A DNA stretch of 64,000 nucleotides from Kiritimatiellia bacterium (GTDB lineage Bacteria; Verrucomicrobiota; Kiritimatiellia; CAIVKH01), in assembly GCA_027493775.1 (NCBI GenBank), contig JAOSKE010000003.1, positions 202,350 to 266,349 of the forward strand. The letters are read 5' to 3'. The notes under the pieces are model-generated. The model searched no databases, was not told where the DNA came from, and worked only from the letters and a program-made list of their open reading frames with translations. A program made the position numbers and the translations under genes. The stretch's first letter is position 1. Each line of letters opens with the position of its first letter. This document shows, piece by piece, positions 2,325 through 34,845 of the stretch.

Positions 2325-2393
2325 GAAAACACCGCCTCAAGCTCATCCGATTCAAACGAGACTTTCCAGCCATTCTGTAGTAAATCGTCCCCC

Positions 2394-2879
2394 ATGAAAC
2401 CCGAAGTCGGCATTATTATGGGCAGCGACTCCGACCTACCCACCATGCAAGCAGCAGCGGACACACTCGCGGAGTTCGGCATCCCCTTTGAGATCAAGGT
2501 CATTTCCGCACACCGCACCCCGGACGATATGGCGCGTTACGCAAAATCTGCTGCGCGGCGAGGAATTAAAGTCATTATTGCCGGAGCAGGCGGCGCAGCC
2601 CATCTCCCCGGTATGACGGCCAGTCATACCACCCTCCCCGTCATCGGCGTCCCCATTCAATCTAGGGCATTAAAAGGAATAGACTCCTTGCTCTCCATCG
2701 CCCAAATGCCCGCAGGCATACCCGTCGCCACCGTCGCCATCGGCAACGCCCGCAACGCCGCCCTCCTCGCCGCAGGCATCCTCGCCCTATCGAACCCCAC
2801 GCTCGCCAAACGCCTCGCCACGTTCCGCCAAAAAATGGCCCGCGCCTCCCGCGCGAAAAATAAACGTCTGGCGATCTGA
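2394..2879 (+). CDS. purE: N5-carboxyaminoimidazole ribonucleotide mutase
   Basis: A 161-residue class I PurE. It moves the carboxylate of N5-CAIR to carbon 4, giving CAIR, in de novo purine synthesis. The active-site features are present: [10 protein letters not shown] near the N-terminus, the SAHRTPD histidine loop near residue 40, and the glycine-rich [11 protein letters not shown] loop, followed by the IGVPIQS segment. The length is standard and no shift is visible. It follows purK on the same strand after 69 bp. A TAGTAA/TAAATC stretch 8-16 bases before the ATG could be a -10 box, but no convincing -35 is seen. Confidence 0.97.
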
Positions 2880-2924
2880 TACAAGACGCCCGAATCGCAC
2901 CGCGCAACCTCCATCAGCCCGGTA

Positions 2925-2953
2925 TTGAGCGCACTGTCTCGATGTGCTACGTT
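2925..2953 (+). promoter_or_regulatory. Promoter of the restriction-modification operon
   Basis: TTGAGC (2925-2930), a 17-base spacer, and TACGTT (2948-2953) preceded by TGC, which makes an extended -10. The expected transcription start falls at or next to the ATG at 2960, six bases after the -10, implying a leaderless methyltransferase mRNA. Confidence 0.5.
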
Positions 2954-2959
2954 GCGCCT

Positions 2960-3916
2960 ATGATCAATCGGACTACGAAAATTTCGGACTCATTCGCGCG
3001 CTCAGAAAGCGCAGTCGTCTATCCCGGAAACTGCCTGGACCTGCTACATGAAGTGCCATCCGAAGCACTTCATCTCATCGTTACATCGCCACCCTATAAC
3101 ATCGGCAAAGAGTACGAGAAAAAAATGCACATTGACTCCTACCTTCGCCAACAGGAGCAAGTCATCCGAGAATGTGTACGCGCACTGGCCCCGACTGGGA
3201 GCATTTGCTGGCAGGTCGGAAATTACGTGGATCGCGGCAGTATCATCCCTCTCGACACCATTCTGTACCCGATCTTCGCAGGACTTGGTCTCACCATGCG
3301 CAATCGGATTGTTTGGCACTTTGAACACGGCCTGCACTGCTCGCGCCGCTTCTCGGGCCGATACGAAACCATTATGTGGTTCACAAAGACCGATGACTAC
3401 GTCTTCAATCTCGATCCCGTCCGCGTGCCACAAAAATATCCGGGCAAAAAATACTTTAGAGGCCCAAAGGCTGGACAGTATTCGTGCAACCCGCTCGGAA
3501 AGAATCCCGGCGACCTATGGATCATCCCAAACGTCAAAAGCAATCACGTCGAAAAAACGGCCCATCCCTGCCAATTTCCCGTTGAACTGATCGAGCGGCT
3601 GGTCCTTTCCATGACACGAAAAGGCGACTGGGTATTCGATCCCTTCCTCGGCACGGGCACATCCATCATCGCCGCCATCAGACACAAGCGCCGGGGCGCG
3701 GGCGCGGAAACTCAACCAAAATACGTTTCTCTCGCCCGTGAGCGCATCGAACAGGAGCTGGACGGCACGTTGCGCACCAGACCCATGACACGCCCTGTGT
3801 ACGATCCAGTCGAAGCCGGCAACAGTCTAACCGTTCCGCCCTGGACACAAACAGAATCGAAACAGATGGTTCTCCTCAACAAACCCACCCGCGAGCAGCG
3901 CTACAAGACCAAATGA
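2960..3916 (+). CDS. DNA (probably N4-cytosine) methyltransferase of a type II R-M system
   Basis: A beta-class amino-methyltransferase of about 318 residues: catalytic motif TSPPYN at residues ~42-47 comes before the AdoMet-binding motif DPFLGTGTS at ~227-235, with the target-recognition region between. SPPY-type motifs are typical of m4C enzymes, and the BglII/BstYI methylases are m4C, which fits the partner; m6A cannot be excluded. The ATG at 2960 is preferred over the in-frame one at 2942 because 2942 lies inside the promoter spacer. Its stop overlaps the endonuclease start by four bases (ATGA). It should protect host DNA from that nuclease. Confidence 0.9.
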   Translation: MINRTTKISDSFARSESAVVYPGNCLDLLHEVPSEALHLIVTSPPYNIGKEYEKKMHIDSYLRQQEQVIRECVRALAPTGSICWQVGNYVDRGSIIPLDTILYPIFAGLGLTMRNRIVWHFEHGLHCSRRFSGRYETIMWFTKTDDYVFNLDPVRVPQKYPGKKYFRGPKAGQYSCNPLGKNPGDLWIIPNVKSNHVEKTAHPCQFPVELIERLVLSMTRKGDWVFDPFLGTGTSIIAAIRHKRRGAGAETQPKYVSLARERIEQELDGTLRTRPMTRPVYDPVEAGNSLTVPPWTQTESKQMVLLNKPTREQRYKTK

Positions 3917-4524
3917 AGATTTCCGAAATATACTCGCATCTTAATGGGCTTGAATTCCTGATGGTCCACAAACCGCGCCTCTGGAAAGAAGTCCAGGACG
4001 TGATCTCTGCCGTGAACTCGACCACGTGCAAAACAAAAATCTCGAAAGAAAAGACCATGAAAGGGGCGCTGCTTTACAGCCCCATCGAAATGAACAAAGA
4101 ATTTGCTCGTTTGCTTCACGCAAAATCATGGAGCGAAAGCCGAGTCAGCTATTGGGTGACACGCGACGAGAAATTGATTCGAAAAACTATGGCCATGTCG
4201 CCCAAACAACAAAAGGAAGAGATAGAGTCTGCTGGCGAAACCCCTATTTTTAGTTACAACCAGACAGATTTTGTGAAGGATCGAATCGCCATTGAAGTTC
4301 AGTTCGGCAAATACGCCTTTGTCGCGTACGACCTCTTTGTCAAACACCTCGCATTCTATATCTCCGATCACATTGACGTTGGCATTGAGATACTTCCGAT
4401 GAAGTCGTTGCAAAGCCAAATGAGTTCCGGCGTGGGCTACTACGAAGGCGAGTTCTACAACATCGTCCGTCAGGGCCGTGGAATCCCTGCGGTACCCCTC
4501 GTTCTTCTTGGCATAGAAGCATAA
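3913..4524 (+). CDS. BglII/BstYI-family type II restriction endonuclease
   Basis: A 203-residue protein matching the BglII/BstYI family in overall pattern. The catalytic layout Asp-X8-Glu-X-Gln known for BglII (D84, E93, Q95) is present as D119, E128, Q130 within DRIAIEVQFGKYAF. The conserved C-terminal block (VGYYEGEFYNIVRQGRG, then IPAVPLVLLGIE) is also seen. BglII cuts AGATCT and BstYI RGATCY, so a GATC-centred site is likely, but the exact specificity cannot be read from sequence. The start overlaps the methyltransferase stop (ATGA), giving translational coupling. The base composition is more AT-rich than flanking genes, as expected for a transferred R-M pair. Confidence 0.88.
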   Translation: MKISEIYSHLNGLEFLMVHKPRLWKEVQDVISAVNSTTCKTKISKEKTMKGALLYSPIEMNKEFARLLHAKSWSESRVSYWVTRDEKLIRKTMAMSPKQQKEEIESAGETPIFSYNQTDFVKDRIAIEVQFGKYAFVAYDLFVKHLAFYISDHIDVGIEILPMKSLQSQMSSGVGYYEGEFYNIVRQGRGIPAVPLVLLGIEA

Positions 4525-6948: not shown

Positions 6949-9900
6949 ATGAAGTCAACAGTTTCTCGCAAAACTTCTTGGAACTTGCTCAAGCTGGGCA
7001 TTGTGGCTGGCACAATCTGGGGCGCAACCACACTTTCCTCTCAAGCGCAGTGGTGGACCTACCTCGAAAACCAAGGCACACCAATTACGTCCAACGTGTA
7101 TTTGGGCGACAACCTCACCAACATCATCAAGTTTGCCGTCAATAAGGGAACGAGCGGATGGACCGTTCAGTTCGGAATGGGCACGACCGTTAATGGATCA
7201 AGCTGGGAATGGGCGGCGGCCACGTGGGATAGAACAGAAGGTCAAGACAATTTTTGGAAAAGTGTCGCCAATTCACTGCGGTTTAAAGCGACAGGAACCG
7301 TCTATTATTCTGGACGATTTAGCTACGGCGGGCGAACCGAATATGCCTCAGGGGCGTGGGCCCAAGGCCGCACGACCCTTTCTGCCAGCAGCTATTTCAC
7401 AGTAAAAGCGCTGACTGCTCCTTCAGGTCAGGGCGCAACTGCTGTGGATCACACAAAAATCAATCTGACGTGGACGCGCGGCGTTTCCGGCACAGCAAAG
7501 AACACGCTGATTGTGCGATCAACGAGCAGCATGTTCACTGCGCCGACACAAGGCGCTGCCTATGCGGTGAATGCGAGCCTGGGATCAGGGAAGGTAATTT
7601 ACAACGGCTCTGGCACAGCGTTTTCAGATACGGGCCTGAGTGAGAGCACTCGGTACTACTACGCCTTTTATGCCGTGAACAATGACTACTACTCCGCCGC
7701 AGTCTCAAAGGATGCAACCACTCAGGCTGCGCCACTGGTCCAGCCTTCTGTTCAGTCATCGAATATCGGAATGAATAACAGCGAGCGTCAGGATCAACTG
7801 TCTCCTGTCTGGACTGCAGGGAATGGCGCTCGCCGGATCGTTGTCGCGCGATTAAATGCGGCGCCGACGGGTGTGCCGGCAGATGGCGCAGACTATGCAG
7901 CAACGGCCAACGCCAATTTCAGCGCAGCGCCTGCATTGGGCGATGGCAAGGTCGTTTTTGCAGGGACTGGAAACACCTTCACGATGACCGGTCTGTCTGC
8001 GAACTCGACGTATTATTTCCGCGTGTACGAATACAATGGAACCGGCGCAAGCACGCTGTATCTGACGACGACGGCAACCGGCAACCCCGCCAGCGGTCAA
8101 ACACTTGGCCCACCCACCGGCCTTAGCGCAACGCCAAATCCAGTAACGCCAGAATCTCAATTGGACCTGAATTGGACTAAAAACAACGGGAAGAACGTCA
8201 TCATTGTACGTTCCACCTCCAGCACGTTCACCGCGCCGACGCAGGGCTCCTCCTACAACACCGGCGCCGCGCTAGGCGCCGGAACAGTCGTGTATAAAGG
8301 GGCGGCCACAGCAGCAACGGCCACATCGCTTACACCAGCAACGACGTACTACTTCGCGTTCTACAGCGAAAACAACAACTACTATTCGGCAGCCGACACA
8401 GCCAGTGGAATTCCGATGCCGGTCGCGCGCAACACTGGAGGTGGAGCTTCTCCGGGGAGTCCGGCGGGAACGTTGTACTTGGGTGATACCGGCACTTTCA
8501 CTGTTGAGGCCCAAGCGAAGATTGGGATCAACTGGAGCGCATCGCGCATATTGTTAAGCTCAGATAACAATGTTGACGGATCAGATCCGGCCTCCGCTTG
8601 GGTCGGATATACCGATCAGCCCGGGCGCTCTCTTACATCCCCACGTTTTTTCAAAACAGGGATTCTTTATTGGGCCATTCAGCTCGATTACGGCAACCCT
8701 TACAACGACACATTTTGGTACAAGAACAGTTCCGCCGCCTGGGCACCAGAGTCCGTCAATGGAAATGGCTCAACGCTCACCGTCACGGTCAGTCCACTCA
8801 ACACGCCCACCGCGCAAAGCGCCACACCCGCTGGCCCGCAACAAATCAACCTCGCGTGGACAAGGGGCATCTCCGGTTCTGCGAAAAATACAATCGTTGT
8901 TCGCTCCACAAGCAGCACGTTCACCGAGCCGACGCAGGGGTCAGCCTACTCATCGGGAAATACGATCGGCGATGGGACCGTCATTTTTCTCGGAGCCGGC
9001 ACGTCCATGTCAGATAGCGGTCTCGCCCCTGGCGCAACGTATTACTACGCGTTTTACGCCGAAAACTACAGCTACTATTCCCCCGCCGTAACCGCGAGCG
9101 CAACTCTGCCGGGCATAGCGCCGAGCGTTCAAGCCACCTCCGTTACCAGCGCAGGCAACACTCATCGTCTAAATCAACTGACATTCTCATGGACGAGCGG
9201 CAACGGCGCACGGCGTATCGCCGTAGCACGGGAAGCGGCCGCGCCGACCGGCACTCCTGTGGATGGCGTGGACTATTCCGCTGCGGCCAACAACGACTTC
9301 AGCGCCGCCCCGGCGCTGGGCAATGGAAAAATCGTGTACGACGGAACCGGAAACTCGTTCGTGCTAACCGGCCTTAATCCCGACACCGTGTATTATGTTC
9401 AGGTGTTCGAATACAACGGTTCGGGTTCGGAAACCCTCTATCTCACGACTAGCGCATCCGGAAATCCGGGTTCGGCTCAAACATTGGGCGCGCCGACGAA
9501 TCTGAGCGCAACGCTGGATGGCTCCAATCCTGCCACGCGACTCAGCCTGGGTTGGACGAAAAATAACGGCAAAAATGCGATGATCGTGCGTTCCACAAGC
9601 AGCACCTTCACTGCGCCGACACAGGGCAGCAGCTACAACACCGGCGCAACGCTGGGATCGGGAACAATTATTTACAACGGCAGTGGTACAGCAACCGCAC
9701 TCACCGGACTATTCCCAGGAACGACCTATTATTTTGCATTTTACAGCGAAAGTTATTCCTACTACTCGCCTGCAAACATCACAGCAATCACAACAGAGAT
9801 GCCGGTGGTGCGCAATACGGATGGCCTTGCGTCTCCGGGCGCTCCGTCGGGAACTTTGTATCTAGGCGACAACGCTGTCTTCACTGCCGAAGCACAGGGA

Positions 9901-12733
9901 ATGCTCGAAATCAACTGGAGCCGCCAACGTGTCTGGTTGAGCGCCGACGCTAACGTGGGTGTGAAACCAGATGCGGTGCTGGATTGGCTTATCAATTTCC
10001 AGGATGGCGCCGCGAGAACAGTCACGTCTCCCCGTTTCTTCCAGACAGGCACACTCTACTGGGCCATGCAGTTTGATTACGGCTCTCCCTATAATGACCC
10101 ATTTTGGTACAAGAGCAGTTCTGCGGCTTGGACGCAGCAATCCACCGATGGAAACGGCTCAACGCTGACCATCACTGTCAGCCCGCTGAACACGCCCACT
10201 GCGCAAAGCGCGACGATGGCTAGCGCATCGCAAATCAATCTCGCATGGACGAAGGGTGTTTCGGGGAATGCCAAGAACACGATGATCGTCCGCTCAACCA
10301 GCAGTACGTTCACTGCGCCCACGCAAGGCTCAGCCTATTCGACAGGCGCTTCACTCGGCAATGGCATCGTGATCTTCAACGGCTCCGCCGCGACCAAATC
10401 GGACACCGGGTTGAGCGCGGCCACAACGTATTATTACGCATTCTATGCGGAGAATTACAGCTACTACTCCGCCGCCGTCACAGCAAGCGAGACGACGGAT
10501 TCAATAGCCGCGCCAGCACCTCCCGTTGCGACAGATGCGACTTCCCCAGACTGGTGGTCTTCGTTCCAGGCAAACTGGAATGCAGTCGCAGGAGCCGATG
10601 GTTATCGCCTAGATGTCTCCACAACGCCAAACTTCAACGGGGAGTGGGTTCTTCAAGATATAGATGTCGGAAACGTAACAAACCGGGTGGTAACAAATCT
10701 TGTCATCGGACAGTATTTTTACCGCGTCCGCGCATACAACGTGGGTGGCGACAGTCCGAATTCGAATGTGAAAGACGCCGAGCTCGGCACAGCCGCCGGT
10801 CGAAACAAGAGCGGCGGGACTCCCTACTACACACCCGCAACTATTTATGTGGGCGATAAGGCGACGTTCGGGGCGGATACCTGGGGCACGATCCTCGGCA
10901 ACTACGGTGCGGCGCGCGCGGTGATTGACACCGACAAGGATATTTCGATCGGAGGCCTCGGCGGAGATTGGACAGGCTTCGACAACGTCGAATATACCGA
11001 AGCAGAATCCCCGCGCTTCACGTCCGCAGGAACGTGGTACTGGGGCATCCAAATGAATTACGGCAGCCCCTATGGCACAAACTTCTGGATGGTTCGCGAT
11101 AAGACCGATTGGGATTATTTACAGTACAAGGGCACAAACGGAAACCTCACCGTAACAGTGCTGGCGCTCGGCAATCCGTCGTCCGTTTCGGCAGCGCAGG
11201 ACGGGAGCGATCCACAACACCAAATCAATCTGAGTTGGACACGCTGGAGTAGCAAGGCCGTTATGGTCGTTCGCTCGACTACGAGTAATTTCACTACCCC
11301 CTCCCCCGGCTCTGCGTATGTCTCTGGAAACATGATTGGTTCAGGTCGGGTAATCTATCGCGGCTCTACCGCAACAACGGTGAGCGACACGGGGCTGACT
11401 CCAGGGCTCACTTACTACTACCGCTTCTATACGGAAAACTGGAGCTACTATTCCGCAGGTGACGACGCGAATGCGAACACAACGCCCGGTTGCGATAACG
11501 GAACGGCCCCAACTATGGCGCATCCGGGCAATAAGGTGATCTATGCCAATAACGCGTCACAATTGAATTTCAACATTCTCGCCTCCGACACCCCCGGCTG
11601 CAACGCACTCGACCTTCGTCGTCAGTGAACTCCCAGCAGGAGCCTCGTTCAACAGCATGCCATCTGGCAATACAATGACGGGATCATTCAGCTGGACGCC
11701 GCAAACCTCACAAGTCGGCACCTACCCCATTCGCTTCACTGCGACGGACAGTGAAAACTTGTCCACCAGCGTGGTCGTCAAGCTTATCGTAGGCATTGGG
11801 TCACCACAGGAGGGTAACACCGGCGGCATTCCGAACTCGCAGTACAACTGGGCGGTGGCCATCACGAATATTGATGTGGACCTTGTCGGCAACGCCTCAG
11901 TGATCTACCGCTCGACCAACGGAATGGCCTACGACGTTTATCAGTCGGACAGCGTCTTCGGCGGCGGCATGTCGTGGAGCCGTGTGGATGCGAATAGAAT
12001 CGCAAACGGCAATATTGACTCCTCGGATCAGAACTACAGTGGCGCACGCCGCTATTTTCAAGTAGTACCCGCAGGGTCTGCACCTACAACCAACGGCGTC
12101 TGGGGTGTCATTCGTCCGTCCATTGTTAATGGATGGAATCTTCTAAGCCCTCCACTCGCAAGTGATCTGAAGTTCAACGGCGCTTTCGGAGAAAACCTTG
12201 CATTGGGACTGACCGGCGCAGGCACGCAGGCAGGGTCAGATCAACTACACGGCCTAGATGGGTCGGGCAATCCGTTCGTGCTCTGGATCAATAGCAACGA
12301 CAACAACCGCTGGTATGAATCCACCTCACCGGCAACCCGCACACTAAACCCCGGCCAGGGCTTTATGATTTATCGTCAAGGCGGACAAACCACCCTGCCG
12401 CTCATCGGTCCCGTCGGCAATACGGGGAATAGTTCCTTTACGCTAAAGAGCGGACAGTGGACGATGTTTGGTCTCTCACAAGGTAAGAACCTAACAGGAA
12501 ATCCCCTGCCCGGTTCACTGAGTTCTCAACCCATTGCATCGTTCCAATACGACTCCGCCGATGTGATCAGCGTGTTGAACCCGAACGGCTCGTGGAAAAA
12601 CTACCAGCGCTTCGGGAACAACCTGTGGCTTGATTTGCAAACCATGCAGCAAAGCTCTTCCATTCAAATGCAGCCGGGGGATGGCTTCTATTATTATCGC
12701 CAGCCGGGTTCCGACATGGCAATCGGGTTCTAA
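6949..12733 (+). CDS. Giant secreted FN3-repeat protein (frame interrupted near 11605)
   Basis: A corrected product of ~1,927 residues. It has a signal peptide (residues 1-34, ending SSQAQ), then alternating modules: 'YLGD' jelly-roll-like modules (about residues 35-155, 490-610, 950-1070, 1285-1400) and many fibronectin-III-like modules carrying the signature RSTSSTFTAPTQGS. A cadherin-like ('putative Ig') module follows (DNGTAPTMAHPGNK to VVVKLIVG), then a ~330-residue C-terminal region. The two reading frames, 6949-11628 and 11657-12733, join if one base is removed near 11603, giving CNALTFVVSELPAG. It is probably a cell-surface or extracellular matrix protein; no catalytic domain is visible. 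Two secreted-protein genes follow immediately. Confidence 0.85.
7415..11490 (+). repeat. Intragenic tandem modules of the giant protein (period ~690 bp)
   Basis: The segment encoding RSTSSTFTAPTQGS recurs near 7516, 8208, 8901, 9591, 10290 and, diverged, near 11272, about 690-700 bases apart apart from the last. The modules alternate so that the larger unit is A-B-A-C (about 1.38 kb), present roughly two and a half times. Some stretches between copies are close to identical, for example the ends of the C modules at ~8761 and ~10150, which indicates duplication and homogenisation. Confidence 0.85.
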
Positions 12734-17030: not shown

Positions 17031-18281
17031 CTAAGCGTGAACACTTTTGCCCGGACTCTTTTCGAAAAGCGTTGTCTGTTGTGGGACAGGTTTAGAGCGT
17101 TGAGGCGTTGCGGGCGTTGGAGCCCCCTCGAAGTCCAGCATGGATGCGCAATCCACCCGCGCCTTTTCGACTCGATTATTAATGATCTCGAAGTAGGCCT
17201 CATTAATTTCAAAGGCGATATAATGGCGTTGATTCCTGATACACGCTTCCACGGTAGTTCCTGAACCTGCAAACGGATCAAGAACAGTGCCCCCTTGTGG
17301 ACAACTGGATTTAATCATCCGCTCGACGATCTCAAGAGGCTTTTGAGTAGGATGATCCTCCCGCTCCGAGTGTATTCGGTGTAGGCGAGAAACGGACCAG
17401 ACATCCTTTGGGTTATACCCAACTTCAAGCCATTTTTTCCCAACAAAGATGGACCGACTCCGCGCCTTCTTGGTCTCGGCATCGTATGGAATGCGAATAG
17501 GGTCGAGGTCAAAATAGTATTTGGGAGTTTTGGCAAAAAAACCGATCGTATCGTGAACAGAAGAGTATTTACGCGTAGTACCTCCCATGCTCGGCACCTT
17601 GCGGTCCCAAATAATCTCATTCAGCATGATCATGTGCTGCTTGAGAAACACGAATATCTCAGGGCTATACCGCCACGTGGCAAAGATGTACAGACTGCCC
17701 GTGCTTTTGAGCTTGGGGAGCGCAAGCAGCAGCCACTTTTCCGTCCAATCCAAAAACTCCTTTGCCGGTCTCTTGTCGGAGTCATTCCCATAATCCTTGC
17801 CCAGGCCATACGGGGGATCCGCGATAATCAAATCAATCGTTTCCTCCGGCAGCGCCGCGATCCCTCCAAGGCGTCAATATTTTTCTACAACGTCTTTCTT
17901 CATAGCATCACTTAACACGATGCTCTTCGAGTTGTCCCGCAGTAGGCGAAGAAATGTGGCACGGGAACGGTATTCCGGCTCGTGGTGATAAAACGCCTGA
18001 ATTTTATCGTTTCTGGGATTAATGTAGATGGGGAGAAATTGCGGGCAAAAGACATGGACGTATTGCTTCACGAAGTTGATGGTTATATTCCTAAATTGGA
18101 CGCCAAAACATGCGTAGATAAGCCGATAATCAGAATTCTCGCGATATTGCATGTACAGCTCTCAACGGCAGAAATATCGTTAACAGACAGACAAAAGGAC
18201 CGTCTTAACACCTGCCATTTCCGCGGTTATGAGAGCAATTTCATCTCGCGTGCGAATCGTCCGGTTTCTTTTTCTCCTCAT
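17031..18281 (-). pseudogene. DNA adenine-type methyltransferase, 5' half frame-disrupted
   Basis: From 17831 down, the minus strand encodes an intact beta-class methyltransferase core: motif IV ADPPYGLGKDYGN, a middle with DLDPIRIPYD, and motif I DPFAGSGTTVEACI. DPPY suggests N6-adenine. The upstream coding looks continuous only with several shifts: near 17866 (LEG to IAALPEETIDLI), 17877 (KDVVEKY to IDALEG), about 18100 (SNLG to NITINFVKQYVHV) and about 18196 (KTVLLSV to NDISAVES). Read that way, the protein starts MRRKRNRTIRTRDE at 18281, six bases after the -10-like AATAAT (18288-18293). Four shifts in ~420 bases exceed the rate elsewhere, so real decay is possible. No endonuclease lies next to it. 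The upstream part is AT-rich, as in transferred genes. Confidence 0.65.
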
Positions 18282-22317: not shown

Positions 22318-23410
22318 ATGGCTGTAGCAGTGCGACTTGATAGCGTTACGAAGCGGTTCGGCGATCTGACCGTCGTTAGCCGCATCTCGGTCACCATCGA
22401 ACCGGGAGAGCTTTTCTTCCTTTTAGGCCCCAGCGGGTGCGGTAAGACGACGCTGCTGCGTTGCATCGCGGGGTTCTACATTCCAGAGGAAGGCAGCATT
22501 CACATCGGCGACCGCGATGTCACCCGACTCTCGCCGGATGCGCGCGATACAGGGATGGTGTTCCAGAGTTACGCGCTCTGGCCGCACATGACCGTTGCAC
22601 AGAACGTCGCGTTCGGCCTCGAGCTGCGCAAAGTGCCGAAGGCGGAGATGGATCAGCGCGTCGCGGAGGCATTGGTAATGGTCAAAATGACCGAGCGCGC
22701 GCAGTACAAGCCCAACCAACTTTCCGGTGGTCAGCAACAGCGCGTCGCGCTGGCTCGTGCGCTGGTGGTGCGTCCTCAATGTCTGCTGCTCGATGAACCG
22801 CTTTCTAACCTCGATGCAAAACTCCGACTCGACATGCGGACCGAGATTCGGCGCATCTGCAAGCAGGCGGGACTGACTGCGATTTATGTGACGCACGACC
22901 AGAAAGAAGCGCTGTCCATTGCGGATCGGATGGCCATTCTCGATAAGGGGATCATTCAGCAGTGCGGTTCGCCGGAAGAGGTGTATCGCCGCCCCAACAG
23001 CAAATTCGTCGCGAATTTTATCGGCGAAGCAAACTTTGTCGAAGGCAAGATTCTTTCAGTTGAAGGCGACCGCGCGGTGATTGAAACGGCCATCGGACGA
23101 ATTACATCCACCGCGCTGCCCACTGAGCTTGTTCGCGCGGGCGAGCAAGTAGCTGTCTCTCTGCGACCCGAGGTCATTCACGTCGCGGAAGAGCCGCCGA
23201 CCGATGCAAATGTCTTCAACGGGCAAATTCATGGCACTCATTTATCTCGGCGAAGTTGCGCAGCATCAGATCAACCTCGCTACAAACGCCGGCGGCATCA
23301 CGGCGCTAAAGGTGTTTGAACTGAATCCAAAAATCGTCACACGTGACGATGAAATGAAGGACGTACAAATCTGGTTCCGTCCGCACAATGCCGTCGTGCT
23401 GACGAAGTGA
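22318..23410 (+). CDS. ABC transporter ATPase, Fe(III)/spermidine-type (frame interrupted)
   Basis: The nucleotide-binding subunit of an importer. It has Walker A GPSGCGKTT, the Q-loop (MVFQSYALWPH), the LSGGQQQR signature, Walker B LLLDEPLSNLD and the switch His in YVTHDQKEA, followed by a C-terminal regulatory TOBE-like region. Near 23226-23234 the frame changes: removing one base joins VFNGQI to MALIYLGEVAQHQINL and continues to a stop at 23410, giving ~363 residues, the usual length. Uncorrected, the protein ends in a nonsense basic tail. The binding protein and permease genes follow on the same strand. A likely promoter is TTCCCA (22279) with TAGACT (22302). Confidence 0.9.
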
Positions 23411-25262: not shown

Positions 25263-26965
25263 ATCGCGCGCTCTCAAAGACAATTTTTCTGACGACCTCG
25301 CTCGTCTTCGTTTTTCTTTTCCTCGCGCCACTTGGCATTGTCATCAAAGGTGGCTTCTGGGTGAACGGCGAGTTCACGTTCCGTTATCTGATCGGTGTAT
25401 TTCAGAATCCAATCTATTCCGAGGGCCTGCTTAACAGTCTGATGCTCGCGGTGGGCACGACCACGCTCGTGACTATCATCGCGATTCCACTCGCGTGGTT
25501 GACGAACAAGTACGAATTTCCCGGAAAAAAATGGATCAGCGGATTAATCCTCGTCCCGATGATTCTCCCTCCCTTCGTTGGCGCGATTGGCTTCCAACAA
25601 ATCCTCGGCCCTTACGGCGGACTCAACGCGCTGCTCGGACTCGGGCCGGTTGATTGGCTTGGGAAACTGCAGTACTGGGGCGTGATCACACTGCAAGCGC
25701 TCGCGTTGTATCCGATTATGTATCTCAACGCCTCCGCCGCGCTGGCAAACATTGATCCCGCAATGGAAGAAGCGGCAGCGAACCTCGGTTGCAAAGGCTT
25801 TGCAAAATTCCGACGCATCACACTTCCACTAATGATGCCGGGTCTTTTTGCGGGCGGCACAATCGTCTTCATCTGGAGCTTCACCGAACTCGGCACACCG
25901 CTGATTATGAATTACACGAAGTGCGCGGCAGTGCAGGTGTTCGATGCGCTCAAGGAGATCGGCACCAACCCGTTCCCCTACGCCCTCGTCTTCGTGATGC
26001 TTGCGAGCAGCGCGATCCTCTATTCCATCGGAAAATTCGTTTTTGGAAACAAGTCGTACGCGATGCAAAGCAAGGCGGCGACGGTCTCGACCAGCAGCGC
26101 AGTCGGAGGCTGGCGCGGAATACTGGTGCTGCTTCCATTCGTGCTCGTGATTCTCGTCGCAGTCACCCCGCACCTCGGCGTCATTGCCACCAGTCTCGCA
26201 AAGCCGGGAAGCTGGTATCAGTCCGTGCTGCCCGCGCAACTGACACTCAACAACTACGCAGAGGCGCTCGGCAACGAGATCACCATCAGCAGTATCCGCA
26301 ACAGCCTCGTCTATTCGACCCTCGCTGTCGCGTTCAACGCAATCATGGGCATCTCCATCGCGTTCGTCGTTGTGCGTTCGGACATTCGCGGACGGGGCCT
26401 GCTCGACGGACTTTCCATGTTGCCGCTCGCGGTTCCGGGACTTGTAATGGCGTTCGGCTATCTCGCCATCAGCGCGACGGTCAGCAATATGGATTGGGTC
26501 AAGAATAGCAGCTTCTGGCAAACTCTGTTGGACGTGCGAACAAACCCGACACTCTTCCTCGTCATCGCCTACAGTGTTCGTCGCCTGCCCTATATGGTGC
26601 GATCCGCCGTCGCCGGTCTGCAACAAACCTCGGTGACGTTGGAGGAAGCTGCCGCAAATTTGGGCGCGGGATTCTTGACTACGTTGCGCCGGATCACGGT
26701 TCCCTTAATTACAGCCAACCTCATCGCAGGTGGCCTGCTCGCGTTCGCATTCAGCATGCTTGAGGTATCCGATGGCCTGATGCTCGCGCAGCGCAGCGAT
26801 TTTTATCCGATCACCAAAACCATTTACGAACTCTTCCAGCTCATCGGTCTCGGGCAATACATCGCCTCCGCCCTCGGCGTCTGGGCCATGGCGTTTCTCG
26901 GCGTCACCATCATCAGCGCGAGCCTCATCCTCGGCAAGAAGCTCGGCGCCATCTTCCGCGCCTGA
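25259..26965 (+). CDS. ABC transporter permease, fused double-domain (FbpB-like)
   Basis: A 568-residue inner-membrane protein made of two tandem permease halves of ~6 helices each, as in FbpB/ThiP-type importers. Each half carries an EAA loop that contacts the ATPase: EEAAANLGCKGF near residue 172 and EEAAANLGAGFL near residue 462. It is translationally coupled to the binding protein (ATGA overlap). Its last 229 bases are duplicated at 31886-32114, identical over the first 123 bases and diverged after that, so a DNA element appears to have inserted here while leaving a full-length gene. Confidence 0.92.
   Translation: MNRALSKTIFLTTSLVFVFLFLAPLGIVIKGGFWVNGEFTFRYLIGVFQNPIYSEGLLNSLMLAVGTTTLVTIIAIPLAWLTNKYEFPGKKWISGLILVPMILPPFVGAIGFQQILGPYGGLNALLGLGPVDWLGKLQYWGVITLQALALYPIMYLNASAALANIDPAMEEAAANLGCKGFAKFRRITLPLMMPGLFAGGTIVFIWSFTELGTPLIMNYTKCAAVQVFDALKEIGTNPFPYALVFVMLASSAILYSIGKFVFGNKSYAMQSKAATVSTSSAVGGWRGILVLLPFVLVILVAVTPHLGVIATSLAKPGSWYQSVLPAQLTLNNYAEALGNEITISSIRNSLVYSTLAVAFNAIMGISIAFVVVRSDIRGRGLLDGLSMLPLAVPGLVMAFGYLAISATVSNMDWVKNSSFWQTLLDVRTNPTLFLVIAYSVRRLPYMVRSAVAGLQQTSVTLEEAAANLGAGFLTTLRRITVPLITANLIAGGLLAFAFSMLEVSDGLMLAQRSDFYPITKTIYELFQLIGLGQYIASALGVWAMAFLGVTIISASLILGKKLGAIFRA
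26737..26965. repeat. Direct repeat, left copy (permease 3' end)
   Basis: 229 bases repeated at 31886-32114. The first 123 bases (26737-26859) are identical in both; the remaining 106 differ at about 18 positions, almost all silent. It marks the left edge of the accessory island. Confidence 0.92.
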
Positions 26966-27053
26966 CCCCACCCCACGCGCCTTCTTCAGACGGCACAAAT
27001 TGAAAATAACTTGCATTCCGAAACCCGGTGCTGATAATCCTACAGTTGTGATC

Positions 27054-27116
27054 GTCAGCCGTCAGCCGTCAGCCGTCAGCCGTCAGCCGTCAGCCGTCAG
27101 CCGTCAGCCGTCAGCC
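27054..27116. repeat. Heptanucleotide tandem repeat (GTCAGCC)9
   Basis: Nine perfect, uninterrupted copies of GTCAGCC, ending five bases before the GTG start of the PLD gene. They fill the place where a ribosome-binding site would be expected. Confidence 0.95.
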
Positions 27117-27121
27117 GAAGG

Positions 27122-28950
27122 GTGGCTGATGTTTATCGGGGCCTGACGCTTGCCATCTTTTTCCTTGTCTCTGCGGTTGCCGGGCCGGCTCAGGAGGTCA
27201 CGGTCGCCTTTTCTCCTCGCGGCGATGCGGTGTCCCTGATCCTTCGCGAAATCAAATCCGCCCAGAAGAGCGTGGATGTCGCCATGTTCTATCTGAGCCA
27301 TCAAGAACTGACGGATGCCCTTTGCGCCTTGGCCCAGAATCGCAGGGTGGCCGTGCGCGTGCTGACCGGCACTTGGATGGATCAACCGGCACATCGCCCC
27401 ATCCTTGACCGCCTTGCACAAAACGGCGCGTCAGTCTTCATACTTCCCCTACCCGGCGAGGCGCGCATGCACTTGAAATGCGCGGTGGTCGACGGCGAAA
27501 CTGTCATCGCGGGAACCGCCAACTGGTCGCGCACTGCGTTCGAGCAGAATTTCGAAGACACATTAATTATACGCTCCCCGGCGCTGGGCCACCGCTATCT
27601 GACGCACTTTAATTCGCTGTTTGCCAAAGCGACGCCTTACGACGCACCTACGCCAGACAAACCGCTCGTTCGGATCAAATTCCCTCATACGGAACGCTAT
27701 ACGACATCAAAACGGGGTGCCAGTTTTCAGGCCCCACGCGCCCATAAGATCAGCGGAATAGCACGAGCGGAAGTGTATTTTAATCCCGGCCGCGAGGGCA
27801 TCGGCCAGCTCCTGTCCCAAGTCCGATCCAGCAATCAGCGGATCGATATCGGGATGTATTTGCTGAACGATCCCGGAATTTTACAAGCGCTGGTTGCCAA
27901 GGCTCGTGAGGGTAAATCGAAAATCCGCGTTCTTTTCGATGCGGGTATGATGGCGGGCAAACTACTGGTCCAAGCGCAAGCGCTGTGGGACGCGGGCGCG
28001 GAGATTCACTATTTCCAAAAGGATCGGGATGCCCTTCACCTGAAAACCGCCATCATGGATGGCCGCTTCGTGTGGACCGGCACCGCCAACTGGACAACCG
28101 GCGCCATGGACTTAAACGTCGAGGATATGCTTTTCTTCGACTCGCCCGAGCTGGCCGGCCTCTACACGGCATTTCTCGACGAAATTCAGAAAGAGTGTAA
28201 ATCCTTCGCGTCTTTGGCGCGGTCAACCAGCGTGGCGGCACTCCCCCAGTCGCAAACGGCGCCGCCAACCGACTTCCTGCGGGGCCTGCCGATCACCGGC
28301 CCCCGAACCAACTTCAACAATCTGACCAGAGACCCGATTTTCCCCTCGTTTCCCGCCAGGGCGGCCGTCGCATATCTGGGTGACGAGGAATACCTGCCGG
28401 TTCTGCTGAAACTAATCGACGGCGCTCATCAATCCATCCTGATCTCCATGTTCGTGATGTCGGAGACCACGACGCGCGCCGAAGGGCAGGAGCAAGTTCA
28501 CCGCGCACTGGAACGCGCGGCCGCTCGCGGTGTGTATGTTTATCTGCTGTTGCACATGCCCCCAGCGTTCAGGACCGGCTCGACCAACACCACTCCAACT
28601 GGGCCGAAAAGCTTCGGGCCAAGGGCATTGATGTGCGCCTGAATCTGCCCAACATACACCTGCACACCAAGATAGTCGTGGTGGACCTGGCCAAAATCCT
28701 GATCGGATCGCACAACTGGTCGGAAGGTGCGCTTACCGGGAAAGGCGTTTACGAATCCAGCGCCCTGCTGGTCCTGCCGGAGCAGGATATTCGATTCGCA
28801 GACTACATCTTAAGTCGGCAGACTATCAGCGAGATGCGCAGCAAAGACACATGGCAGTCGGAGATCGCTCTTTTGCGCCACGTCGCGGTCATGAGCTCGA
28901 TCGAGCGCGCGGCCTTTGACCGAGAGCGGGAGGCTCAGGTGCGACAATGA
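27122..28950 (+). CDS. Secreted phospholipase-D-like protein with three HKD motifs (frame interrupted)
   Basis: A corrected product of ~609 residues with a signal peptide (GLTLAIFFLVSAVAGPAQ). It contains three PLD-type HxKxxxxD motifs: HLKCAVVD at residue 117, HLKTAIMD at residue 306 and HTKIVVVD encoded from 28663, each followed by the usual G(T/S)xNW. The superfamily includes phospholipases, cardiolipin synthases and nucleases that usually pair two HKD motifs per active site; three in one chain is unusual. A C5 run at 28559-28563 (needs C6) breaks the frame between LLLHMPP and SVQDRLDQHHSNW. The GTG start directly follows the heptamer repeats. The next gene overlaps it by ATGA. Confidence 0.88.
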
Positions 28951-29708
28951 ATCCCGCGCACACAGCCTTCGTCCTGTTTTTGCTGGCCGTCAACACCGCC
29001 CTTGCCGCTCCCGACCTCATCTACCTGCGCGACGGCCGGATGCTGGAGGGACAGGTCATGAACGAACTGCGCGATCAATACTCGTTTCGCGCCAGCGCCG
29101 GCATCCCCGCGTCACAACAAATTCCCAAGGATGCGGTGAAGTTCGTCGTATACGGCGATCCCGCCAAAGCCCGCCAGGTTCTTGGACTGGACCAAGCGGC
29201 GCGCCTGGGCAAGAACACCGACCTGGCCACCGCAACCATACTCCCCACGGAGGCTTTTGGTCAGTCGCTCGGCCCCGTCGTGCAGGCCGCCACCCAATCC
29301 ATCTGGATCACGGCCTATTACGTGAGCGGCTTCATCGAGGGTCCGATCAAGGTGTTTTACGAAACCATTCGCGCCAAGGCCCGCGCGGGGCTTGACGTCG
29401 TCATGATCTGCGAGTTCAGCGCCGGAACTCGCCCTGCGGTGCGAAACGCCACCCTCAACTTCGTCAAGGAGCTGTCGCGGGACGGCGTCACCGTGCTGTT
29501 CATTCAGGGCGGCAAGACCATGCACAAAAAGATGATCATCGTGGACGGAAAGACGGTTCTACTGGGTTCATCCAACCTGACTGTTGCCGGCACCGTGGGC
29601 AGCAACGAGATGAATGTACAGGTGGACTCGCCCACCTTCGCCAAGCGGGCAGCATCCGATTTCGCTCGATTGCGCGCTCGGGCGATACCCGCCACCGAAC
29701 TCAAATAA
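28947..29708 (+). CDS. Secreted PLD-like protein with one HKD motif
   Basis: A 253-residue protein with a signal peptide (TAFVLFLLAVNTALA). A short N-terminal beta module follows (LIYLRDGRMLEGQVMNELRD), of the kind seen in many secreted Planctomycetes/Verrucomicrobia proteins. Then comes a single PLD domain with HKKMIIVDGKTVLLGSSNLT. One-HKD members such as Nuc-type endonucleases act as homodimers, so nuclease or phospholipase activity is possible but unproven. It may also pair with the odd third HKD domain of the upstream protein. The start overlaps the upstream stop (ATGA), so the two PLD proteins are made together. Confidence 0.88.
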   Translation: MNPAHTAFVLFLLAVNTALAAPDLIYLRDGRMLEGQVMNELRDQYSFRASAGIPASQQIPKDAVKFVVYGDPAKARQVLGLDQAARLGKNTDLATATILPTEAFGQSLGPVVQAATQSIWITAYYVSGFIEGPIKVFYETIRAKARAGLDVVMICEFSAGTRPAVRNATLNFVKELSRDGVTVLFIQGGKTMHKKMIIVDGKTVLLGSSNLTVAGTVGSNEMNVQVDSPTFAKRAASDFARLRARAIPATELK

Positions 29709-29728
29709 GGGAGAATACGGAGGAATAT

Positions 29729-30404
29729 ATGATTGGACTCGATCGTGCAGCGTCTCTGTGCCTGCTATTGCCGCTTTTGGCGCTTGGCTTGCTGATTCTT
29801 CCGGCCCACGGTGAATGTCCCCCGTGCCAACAACCAAACCCCGAGTATGACCCCAACCATCCATATCCCGACGAGCAGAGCGAGCCGGAGTGCATAAATG
29901 GACCAGACGGCCCCATTGAGGGCGAACCCTGCAAAGAGTGCAAGGGCGGGGAGATCGTTGAGAAGCCATTACTTTGTTACGAACTTGAAGAGAAGGGCGA
30001 AGAGAAGGCCTATGGGTGTAATCTGCAGCGAAGGCAAGGGAAACGATGTGATGCCCTCCTGCTCGCCACGGGTAAACACGTATAAGTACTACAGGGCAAA
30101 AGAATCTTGCAGGGGGTTTGCGACTTATTATCGGCAAAGTATAATTGTATATGTTGAAAGACCCTGCAAAACCTCCTATGACTGGGACAACATGAATCAG
30201 GTTCCTGCGGGCATTTGCTTGGCCTCGTGTGTTGCGGCAGCGCTATTAAAAAGCCCATCGAGTGCCGCCGAATGCTTGGTCTGCCTGCATGATAATTTTC
30301 ATGATTTTGATCCTTGCGACTATCTAAATTGCGACCCAGACAACAATTCATTGCCTCTTATTCTTCGTAAATACTCAGATATCGGAGGATTAAAATGCGA
30401 CTGA
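29729..30404 (+). CDS. Cys-rich secreted protein of unknown function (frame interrupted)
   Basis: The start is supported by a GGAGG Shine-Dalgarno eight bases upstream. A signal peptide (CLLLPLLALGLLILPAHG) is followed by a proline/acidic, Cys-rich region (ECPPCQQPNPEYDPNHPYPD, then EGEPCKECKGGE). The frame changes somewhere in 29990-30030, after which a second Cys-rich part follows (ICSEGKGNDVMPSC, AKESCRGFATYYRQS, GICLASCVAAALL, CLVCLHDNF, PCDYLNCDPDN). The corrected product is ~224 residues with about 20 cysteines, suggesting many disulfides or metal sites. It shares the operon with the PLD genes and overlaps the next gene by ten bases. No family was recognised. Confidence 0.65.
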
Positions 30405-31443
30405 TACGCCTTGCATCGATATACCTGATTATCGTGTACGGTCATACTGTCCCGACATCGGCGGAACGAATCCCAACATTTGATTCAGACTGTACGGCAT
30501 GGGCGGATGCGGTTCGCGCGGCAGGAGCAAAGCCTCCTCTTGAACTGTTAATCGACGAAGTCTTTTCCGGAACGTATAAGCCGCCGGACCTTGGTCGCTT
30601 GCGCTCTATTGCTGAGAAACTGTATGAACAAGACGTAGATATTCACAACGATTTTCCAACCGCGGAAGATTACGTCCAATGGAATATAGAGCAGAACACG
30701 AAGCAGTCGATGGACTATGCGGAACATTATCAATATCGCATCACGATAACATCCAACAGGTTCCTCGTGACATCAACCAACACGATGAAAAGACACGATC
30801 ACGTCTATCATGCTGTCGCCGGCACAAAGAATGGTCGCCATTACAACGTGGTTTCGATCAACAACGAATCCGGCACGCTCATCAAGTCGACTTGGTCTGG
30901 TGGCGTGAATGAATATGTGGAAATATTTCAATATGGAGCATTATCGAGCGGTGACGCGACAGCCCTGGAAACGATATGGAAGATTGTAACCGATAAAACG
31001 GACGACGCGCTATGGCAAGAACTCTGTGCTGGCGGGGGATGCTTGAGGTGAAATCGAAGGGGCTGCGCGTCATGATCACGAACGATGTCTTGGACGCTGA
31101 GGGGGTTGTGCGCATCGAATGCGGCACTGATGACGGAAGAGGGGCCAAAGCCTTTGTGATCGATAAAGCCGACGGCAGAGTCACGATGGTAAAGGAAGAG
31201 AGGAACGTCGAGGGCATAAAGCGTGTAAGGTGTAGCGATTTCGCACCCGTGGCGGGTAGCGGCGCTCTTTATCCTCGTACAATTGTCGAAGAGGAGTACG
31301 ACCCAGCGGGCACGCCCGTTATAACCAGAGCACTGACCGTCCGCTCGGTCGTTGCGTTAACCGATGACGATCTACGGCGCGTTGATTGGGACCTGCTTAA
31401 CGCAGTACCGACCGAAGGGGTGCCGCCCGGGGCTACCGAATAG
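30395..31443 (+). CDS. Unknown, probably secreted protein (frame interrupted)
   Basis: Starts with a Shine-Dalgarno (GGAGG) and a hydrophobic leader (LIRLASIYLIIVYGHTVPTSA). The middle has YAEHYQYRITITSNRFLVTST and GTLIKSTWSGG. A G5 run at 31034-31038 splits the frame; a one-base change joins LWQELCAGG to MLEVKSKGLRVMITND, and the protein continues to a stop at 31443, giving ~349 residues. The base composition is lower in G+C than the PLD genes, especially in 30400-31000. No domain was recognised. As last gene of the island's operon it may be a partner or target of the PLD proteins, but that is a guess. Confidence 0.6.
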
Positions 31444-31520
31444 TCGCTTGGGGTTGAGTCGTTTGGGGGCCGGGGCGGACCGGCACGGGGTCGCGGGCTG
31501 GGGTCAGGTCTGTATTTTTA

Positions 31521-31726: not shown

Positions 31727-31885
31727 ATGGTTCGACCTTTGCGTATTCAGATTCGGGATGGGTGGTATCATGTTACGGCGCACGAGACGCTGCGGCAGAT
31801 GATCTTCACGGAAGAGGCCAGCTATCGGCACTTCTTGGAGCTTCTGAAGGAAATAATACAGACCCTATTCGCCTGCTATTCGCCG
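31727..31885 (+). pseudogene. REP-associated transposase (RAYT, IS200-like) N-terminal remnant
   Basis: The first ~45 residues (PLRIQIRDGWYHVTAHETLR, then MIFTEEASYRHFLELL) match the start of REP-associated Y1 transposases, whose usual motif is PLRIEFxGAWYHVTxRG. The part that would carry the HUH metal site and the catalytic tyrosine is missing: the reading frame ends where the duplicated permease sequence begins at 31886. It is a dead fragment whose 3' portion was lost at the island's right junction. Confidence 0.82.
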
Positions 31886-32114
31886 GCTCGCGTTCGCATT
31901 CAGCATGCTTGAGGTATCCGATGGCCTGATGCTCGCGCAGCGCAGCGATTTTTATCCGATCACCAAAACCATTTACGAACTCTTCCAGCTCATCGGTCTC
32001 GGGCAATATATCGCCTCCGCCCTCGGCGTGTGGGCGATGGCGTTCCTCGGCGTCACCATCGTCAGCGCGAGTTTGATTCTCGGCAAAAAGATGGGCGCGA
32101 TTTTCCGCGTTTAG
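31886..32114 (+). pseudogene. Duplicated 3' end of the ABC permease gene (right copy)
   Basis: Encodes the last ~75 residues of the permease (MLEVSDGLMLAQRSDFYPIT onward), ending in a stop at 32114 as GAIFRV instead of GAIFRA. There is no start or upstream half, so it is not a gene on its own. The first 123 bases equal the left copy; later differences are almost all silent, so this piece evolved as coding sequence before separation. It probably is the displaced original end of the gene, or the incoming one. Confidence 0.9.
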
Positions 32115-33726: not shown

Positions 33727-34845
33727 GTGGTTCTCTAAAGTTCTGACTTGATTGAACAGGTGCGAATGTTGTCAGGCGCTCTGTTGATGGCCCAGCAAAG
33801 AGCCTTGTCAATACGGGCAATGAGCGCATCGGCGTCTTTGGCCACGAAGTCGGTAAACCACTCCGCTTTGATCAAAAGCCACAGCCGCTCAATCGGGTTG
33901 AGGTCCGGTGAATACGGGGGCAGATACAACGGCTCGAAGCGACCCCACTGAAGCCGGGCCGCCTTGTGCCATGAGGCGTTGTCCAGTATGAGAAGTTGGC
34001 GTGGACGCGAAGGAGGCGGCAGCCGGTTAGCCTCATCCAGGAACGCCTGAAAGGTATCGGTGTCCGAATGCGAGAATTCACAGAGGAACGCTTCGCCCGT
34101 TCTCGGACATACCATCCCGGTCACGTTCATTCGCAGATGGTCGCCGTTTTTGGTGACCCGGCCCGTTTTGCCCACCTTGATCCAACGGCGGCGAGGACGA
34201 GGATCGCCCTCAATCCCCGTTTCGTCGCCAAACCAAAGCTCTACATCGGGGTTCTTCATAAGCGCTTGAAGTTCAAGGCAGAATGACTTTCGGGACTCTT
34301 CGTCCTGCCGATCCGGCCACGGTTGCGGCACCTTCAGCCGAAAGCCTTGATCGTGCAAAAAGCGCATAACCGTTGAATAGGCAACGGGCAGCTTGAGTTC
34401 ATCCCGCAAATAGCCATGCAGCTTGACCCCGGTCCAGTGGTGTTGATCTGCCAGTCCGGGTTGCTCAACTAGGTTCACAATCTGCGATACGCGGTCCTGG
34501 GGAATCTTGCGCGGCCGACCCGACCGAGCATGTTCAATCAGCCCGTCAATGCCGGCTTGATTCCATGCGTGTACCCAGCGAGTGAGGGTGCGCTCGCTTA
34601 CCGCAAAAAGCTTGGCGACTTGGGAGAAGTCCATCTCCAGCATCAGCGCATTTATAGCGTACAGGCGGTCCCGGCTACGCATGGTTGGGGCGGTCGTTAT
34701 TGCCAGCCGCAGCTCCTCGGGCTTGCAGTTTTCGGGATTTGGCAATGTCTTCGAGACCGGCATTTCCCAGCTTCATACAGCATCTCCCAAAAATTAAAAG
34801 TTTTTTATCACCCTTTTTTCAGGACAAAACTTTTGAGAAAGGCTC
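33727..34845. mobile_element. IS630-family insertion sequence
   Basis: About 1,119 bases containing one transposase gene. The ends are imperfect inverted repeats: GTGGTTCTCTAAAGTTCTG on the left and, reading inward from 34845, GAGCCTTTCTCAAAAGTTTTG on the right edge up to one gap. TA dinucleotides flank both ends (33725-33726 and 34846-34847), as expected because IS630 elements duplicate TA. Size and gene content fit an autonomous copy. Confidence 0.75.
33735..34763 (-). CDS. IS630-family transposase
   Basis: A 342-residue DDE transposase. The N-terminal helix-turn-helix part (FSQVAKLFAVSERTLTRWVH) is followed by an RPRKIPQD linker and a DDE domain with the acidic residues in WFGDETGIEG, LLILDNASWHK and LPPYSPDLNPIERLW. 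It moves the element by cut-and-paste into TA sites. The frame is intact and ends eight bases inside the left terminal repeat, so it may be active. It sits between udk and the acyl-CoA ligase gene and disrupts neither. Confidence 0.96.
   Translation of the reverse strand: MPVSKTLPNPENCKPEELRLAITTAPTMRSRDRLYAINALMLEMDFSQVAKLFAVSERTLTRWVHAWNQAGIDGLIEHARSGRPRKIPQDRVSQIVNLVEQPGLADQHHWTGVKLHGYLRDELKLPVAYSTVMRFLHDQGFRLKVPQPWPDRQDEESRKSFCLELQALMKNPDVELWFGDETGIEGDPRPRRRWIKVGKTGRVTKNGDHLRMNVTGMVCPRTGEAFLCEFSHSDTDTFQAFLDEANRLPPPSRPRQLLILDNASWHKAARLQWGRFEPLYLPPYSPDLNPIERLWLLIKAEWFTDFVAKDADALIARIDKALCWAINRAPDNIRTCSIKSEL

Follow-up and report, generated by a model that had tools for sequence, protein, structure and literature searches.

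Phospholipase D (PLD) active sites are made of two HKD motifs, as in Nuc and the tandem PLDs, and in contingency genes of the Neisseria opa type a short repeat is located at the start of an exported gene. The RHS/CDI polymorphic toxins are known to join a common N-terminal carrier to a swappable C-terminal enzyme, with a cognate partner encoded downstream (Zhang et al. 2012, PMC3482391), and HEAT and ankyrin proteins are recognised immunity types in such systems (Imm-HEAT and Imm-Ank; PMC3482391). A block of four genes in a 64,000-nucleotide stretch of DNA from a Kiritimatiellia bacterium (hereafter the window; G000:C3:202350-266349 of a source genome of 3.2 Mb in five contigs) encodes a PLD protein with three HKD motifs, a PLD protein with one, a secreted cysteine-rich (Cys-rich) protein and a secreted partner. 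An earlier note had proposed these four identities and placed the genes in this order at 27122-31443; both proposals were borne out when open frames and domains were re-checked.

We consider it likely, judging from comparison of the locus with its relatives, that the block is a polymorphic toxin-immunity operon whose products are secreted and whose expression is probably phase-variable, and that its conserved part is an exported PLD complex; the block appears to be both undescribed and horizontally moving. The sequence-level basis consists of a conserved gene pair, variable third and fourth genes, linkage between toxin and partner types, a module in common with an RHS toxin, and repeats.

The conserved phospholipase D pair

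Relatives were sought by profile searches in 346 genomes of the class and by a phylum-wide search of 388 genomes, with genes containing frame slips searched frame by frame, as sequenced. The one-HKD family was found at 18 places (a few of them fragments or PLD3 domains) in 10 of the 346 class genomes, with full-length relatives confined to Kiritimatiellae. We rejected the pair as a general Verrucomicrobiota family, given that the phylum-wide search returned only weak PLD-domain matches outside the class, and no relatives of the pair were found on viral contigs.

The three-HKD gene lies directly 5′ of the one-HKD gene in every locus with a complete one-HKD copy, the exception being L069/L042, where a 5′-truncated one-HKD gene adjoins a tRNA. 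The tRNA, a tRNA-Val directly before the truncated gene (L042, 5386-6170), is a possible integration point. The stop codon of the three-HKD gene and the start codon of the one-HKD gene overlap, as ATGA or GTGA, at each of the 12 readable junctions (ATGA in the window, at 28947-28950), and in L076 the two genes are fused into a single frame of 854 amino acids (aa) with four HKDs, in which the second half has lost its signal peptide. Because PLD active sites need two HKD motifs, this arrangement is most simply read as a 3+1 complex having two complete sites, and we infer that the two proteins would assemble into such a complex after export.

The one-HKD protein comprises a signal-like segment, an N-terminal beta domain and a PLDc_2 domain, and retains an intact HxKxxxxD/GSxN motif in the window (alignment A3). 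Pfam, alignment and structure comparison agree on this motif and on the PLD fold, placing the pair in the PLD (HKD) superfamily. Foldseek matched the one-HKD protein to NucT, Nuc and MitoPLD; the closest PLD folds overall were these three together with PLD3/4 and PDB 7e0m, a set that leaves the choice between DNA and lipid substrates undecided. The structure model of the three-HKD protein is of moderate confidence (pLDDT 67) and does not settle how its domains pair.

Among named defence families (NCBIfam, PADLOC), the PLD family most similar to the pair is DrmC of DISARM, a likeness that would suit a phage-defence cassette in which secreted DrmC-related nucleases attack incoming DNA and the remaining genes are accessory. 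We regard this as very improbable, given that the PLD proteins are predicted to be exported, that single PLD proteins scored 51–122 bits (51 for PLD1 of the window) against the NCBIfam DrmC cut-off of 133, which only the four-HKD fusion exceeded by summing its domains, and that the Cys-rich and partner genes matched no defence model. DISARM membership was accordingly rejected, with no drmA, drmB, methylase or other DISARM gene among the scanned neighbours, and the guess of a defence role in the earlier note is left with a generic PLD likeness.

Cys-rich proteins and their partners

Of the 13 loci whose sequence extends 3′ of the PLD pair, 12 have a secreted Cys-rich gene at that place, itself followed by a secreted partner; nearly all products at these loci have signal-like N-termini. 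An N-terminal module (for example, CxxCWE...PGQPCKECDGKGG..NKxDG...CC) recurs in many of the Cys-rich proteins, joined to C-termini that they do not share. Paired copies within a locus match in their N-terminal parts only, at 57% over 58 aa between L033a and L033b and at 76% over 29 aa between L034a and L034b. Likewise, between the window and its nearest relative, L069, PLD1 is 76–77% identical and the likeness of the Cys-rich proteins is limited to ~50 N-terminal aa. The combination of a conserved N-terminus with non-homologous C-termini among copies, as in polymorphic toxins, holds at both the protein and the DNA level.

The earlier note had named wide occurrence of the PLD genes without the other two as evidence that would refute its proposal. 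We found instead that the Cys-rich gene almost always stands 3′ of the PLD pair and that the Cys module occurs almost only in genomes with the pair, independent genomes being PLD-positive in 2/3 cases (P 5e-4).

Known toxin domains occur at the C-termini of relatives. In L071 the Cys-rich protein ends in a phospholipase A2 domain (PF09056, E 7e-6, just below the cut-off), and a second C-terminal type, present for example in L034, is an HExxH...E metallopeptidase-like domain. To follow the latter, we searched the 346 genomes separately with a profile of the HExxH C-termini (A8) and a profile of their partners (A5). A8 matched at six places, three of them new, i.e., outside the set from which the profiles were built, and an A5 gene lay directly downstream on the same strand at all six, so that for the HExxH type a cognate partner travels with the toxin. 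One of the three new places, in G077, holds a shortened Cys-rich form, and another copy of the partner, an orphan, lies beyond the first. An HEDxH region in L077 was considered as a further family member and rejected when profile comparison gave no support; L077 was left out of the pair count because the link between HEDxH and HExxH is unsupported. Partner types vary with the toxin (HEAT, ankyrin and others), and a permutation test of the cognate pairing on the first 15 modules gave P 0.002.

The HExxH domain at another of the three new places tips an RHS protein (L127, 1626-2684, in G046:C96; TIGR03696, E 2e-17) and is followed by the A5 partner, in a genome without the PLD family. L127 was the only match to RHS repeats or Rhs_assc_core, with none in the window genes or the scanned PLD-linked carriers. 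In L127, the RHS toxin and partner together span 1626-3406; a further piece of RHS core precedes them (2-910), and the whole resembles an array of displaced tips.

The modules carry further marks of exchange. L067 has a second toxin/HEAT module that is preceded by a repeat of the PLD1 3′ end at 90% identity, and toxin 5′ ends are repeated in L033 and L077; recombining cassettes would produce such duplicated module ends. At each of the nine loci measured, GC content is lower in the toxin and partner genes than in the PLD genes (0.515 against 0.592 in the window), a difference that is only marginal in L034.

The same loci could be read as a secreted scavenging set, in which PLDs, phospholipase A2, peptidases and Cys-stabilised accessories digest extracellular DNA, lipid or protein and the last genes bind or sort the products. 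The near-universal signal-like N-termini would fit such a set, PLD, phospholipase A2 and HExxH proteins are all hydrolases, and scavenging would pay in a community. Yet the C-terminal enzymes swap behind a constant N-terminus, the HExxH type always comes with its matching partner, and the operon-start repeats (described below) and the low GC of the variable genes are more in keeping with conflict genes than with digestion. Scavenging or a housekeeping role is also hard to uphold because a toxin tip and its partner are held in common with an RHS toxin, a hallmark of a polymorphic pool, and we consider this explanation improbable. Of the three guesses in the earlier note (effector, defence or nutrient scavenging), our comparison favours an effector, now given a specific form by the conserved N-terminus, the swappable C-terminal enzyme and the occurrence of one enzyme type as an RHS tip with the same partner.

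Several points weigh against a polymorphic toxin-immunity operon. L034 departs from the usual order, with two Cys-rich/partner modules placed divergently upstream of the PLD genes. Apart from phospholipase A2 and HExxH, the toxin tips mostly have no assigned family; the tip in the window matched no family and had no relative among 20 sampled Cys-rich sequences, and the window partner, which occupies the slot of the HEAT, ankyrin and other partners, had no homologue in 57 relatives and no recognisable family. With tip and partner matching nothing, the membership of the window copy therefore rests on the Cys module, its position and the locus architecture. The Cys-module profile (A2) includes the window sequence and was built partly from genomes that it later matched, and several of the relative loci are contig ends in metagenome assemblies. 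Finally, none of the polymorphic toxin systems found in a literature search has a conserved PLD pair among its described components, and the role proposed for the pair here comes from position alone.

The window copy and its surroundings

A short tandem repeat with a period of 2, 7 or 8 nucleotides (nt) lies at most 160 nt 5′ of the conserved three-HKD start in 7 of the 11 PLD loci, and 7 of the 8 short-period arrays present in 169 kb sit at such a start (P about 1e-13). L077 and L098 have a start codon, 9 nt 5′ of the array, whose frame continues across the array into the protein; at the other five array loci the closest start does not lie in frame. As in contingency genes, a repeat whose unit is not a multiple of three is found at the gene start, and both frames occur among the copies. 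The (CT)n arrays of L033, L067 and L078 encode Ser-Leu repeats in the frame of the gene, which form the signal-peptide core in L033 and L067. On this evidence, the operon is probably switched on and off through slippage of the repeat at the three-HKD start. In the window copy (Table 1), the GTG at 27048, 5′ of the array, is out of frame in the assembled sequence and the GTG at 27122, 3′ of it, is in frame, an arrangement compatible with either an ON or an OFF state.

Table 1. Features of the phospholipase D-linked block and its borders in the window.
Feature	Position	Strand	Details
Phospholipase D-linked block	27122-31443	+	Four genes, in the order three-HKD PLD, one-HKD PLD, Cys-rich, secreted partner
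Heptanucleotide array, CGTCAGC x9.3	27053-27117	+	TRF; candidate repeat for phase variation, just 5′ of the lead gene
Three-HKD PLD gene, first frame	27122-28642	+	Two PLDc_2 (Pfam PF13091, E 2.6e-55); signal-like N-terminus
Three-HKD PLD gene, second frame	28633-28950	+	Third HKD domain and C-terminus; one continuous frame in homologues
One-HKD PLD protein, 253 aa	28947-29708	+	Intact frame; PLDc_2 (Pfam PF13091, E 7.1e-21)
Cys-rich secreted gene, first frame	29729-30085	+	Signal-like segment and conserved Cys module (profile A2); predicted toxin carrier
Cys-rich gene, second frame	29898-30404	+	Variable C-terminus, predicted to be the toxin tip
Secreted partner gene, first frame	30395-31051	+	Signal-like N-terminus; predicted immunity protein
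Secreted partner, probable continuation in another frame	31012-31443	+	Base periodicity; alternatively a separate small gene
Left repeat copy, 3′ end of ABC permease gene	26733-26960	+	Direct repeat
Right repeat copy, orphan permease 3′ end beside PRK gene	31882-32109	+	Direct repeat
IS200/RAYT-type (Y1_Tnp-like) gene, N-terminal remnant	31727-31881	+	Cut at right repeat; inferred from translation likeness to Y1_Tnp proteins of L071 and L128

Frame slips occur in three of the four genes within 4.3 kb. The slip in the three-HKD gene (near 28,560) is particular to the window copy, because the homologue in the same-genus relative G001 (locus L098) reads as a single frame of 636 aa. Such slips could mean that the window copy is a dead remnant and that the polymorphic toxin reading holds for its relatives, an outcome compatible with our preferred explanation and to which we give a substantial chance, if short of an even one. 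Decay would also account for the truncated RAYT gene and duplicated permease end alongside, and the locus in the same-genus relative stops early, after the PLD1 start. However, the same kind of split over two frames, relative to G001 or the congener G002, is seen in at least three conserved genes of ordinary type elsewhere in the window (near 23,220-23,240, 39,955 and 43,830), and given these comparable slips assembly indels are a fair explanation of those in the operon, no less likely than decay. The one-HKD gene is intact, with every motif residue kept, and both halves of the partner gene retain coding-type base periodicity. An Rfam scan gave no match inside the operon, and promoter and terminator signals were no more frequent there than in shuffled sequence.

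On either side of the block lies one copy of an imperfect 228-bp direct repeat, which consists of the 3′ end of the neighbouring upstream ABC permease gene. Over their first ~130 nt the two copies agree almost completely; their last ~95 nt have diverged, mostly at synonymous positions, leaving a protein identity of 97%. In G002, the permease and PRK genes are contiguous, forming an empty site; in G001, the permease and PLD genes lie on separate contigs. We read this arrangement as an insertion of the block, presumably by recombination inside the 3′ end of the permease gene. RAYT genes are likewise found beside the relatives L071, L128 and, by reading, L098.

Beside the RAYT remnant of the window lies a motif, GGGGTCAGGTCTGTATTTTTA (31493-31520), which we take to resemble the repeats that accompany RAYT-type genes, and a DDE_3 (IS630-like) transposase is encoded on the minus strand near the right end of the inserted block (33735-34763). 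Elsewhere, the window contains a type II restriction-modification pair, composed of a DNA methylase and a BglII-family endonuclease (2942-3916 and 3913-4524; endonuclease matches PF09195, E 9e-35, and PADLOC REase_II, E 2e-94), a second, solitary N6/N4 DNA methylase (17031-17831), and a 1559-aa protein (6949-11628) with matches to fibronectin type III and the purple-acid-phosphatase N-terminal domain.

Proposed mechanism and known systems

In the proposed polymorphic toxin-immunity operon, the two PLD genes would be the conserved core, translated in a coupled manner and then exported. The Cys-rich protein would be the variable weapon, built from a signal peptide, a disulfide-rich N-terminal module and, carried behind these, a C-terminal enzyme that can be exchanged, and the last gene would encode an exported cognate immunity protein that changes along with the toxin. 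New toxin/immunity modules would come by horizontal transfer, through recombination at the end of the PLD gene and at the toxin N-terminus, and slippage in the short repeat at the three-HKD start would switch the whole operon. PLD activity may help to deliver or process the toxin, or may act on the membranes or DNA of the target as a shared co-effector. Toxicity, immunity, formation of the PLD complex, phase switching and a PLD part in toxin action are thus all predicted from sequence features.

A stronger version, which we offer tentatively and think doubtful as it stands, would have the exported 3+1-HKD complex act as a phase-variable device for the delivery or maturation of interchangeable toxins from the RHS pool, a new class of polymorphic toxin machinery. 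The complex might, for example, open the target membrane or link the Cys-rich toxin to lipid by transphosphatidylation.

If the toxin-immunity reading is right, the operon would be a new kind of weapon system in the Kiritimatiellae, a class that is poorly known and for the most part uncultured, and the split PLD enzyme would be a new conserved component in polymorphic toxin biology, one that could serve as a marker for the discovery of many new toxin tips and immunity proteins. The 3+1 division of HKDs, together with the natural four-HKD fusion, offers a testable case of an obligate two-gene PLD enzyme. In a search of the open-licence literature, we found no paper linking Kiritimatiellae or PLD pairs to polymorphic toxins.

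With NucT, Nuc, MitoPLD/Zucchini, PLD3/PLD4 and PDB 7e0m, the PLD pair has in common the fold and the HxKxxxxD and GSxN active-site motif; unlike them, it splits its HKDs 3+1 over two coupled exported proteins and carries an extra N-terminal beta domain on the one-HKD protein. The repeat at the start of an exported gene is a feature common with Neisseria opa-type genes, whereas the repeat unit of the PLD loci differs from locus to locus (2, 7 or 8 nt).

The polymorphic toxins with a cystatin-like carrier (PMC12419801) resemble the present operon in having a small non-repeat N-terminal domain, several toxin tips and a related immunity protein; the carrier differs, and as far as the excerpted text of that source goes, no PLD genes are described with it. 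With the RHS/CDI polymorphic toxins (PMC3482391), the operon has in common not only the carrier, swappable enzyme and downstream partner but also module duplication, HEAT and ankyrin partners and, in the case of the RHS protein, one toxin/partner module. It differs from them in that its carrier is a short Cys-rich secreted module in place of RHS or filament repeats, and in that the operon is headed by a separate conserved exported PLD pair with short repeats at its start.

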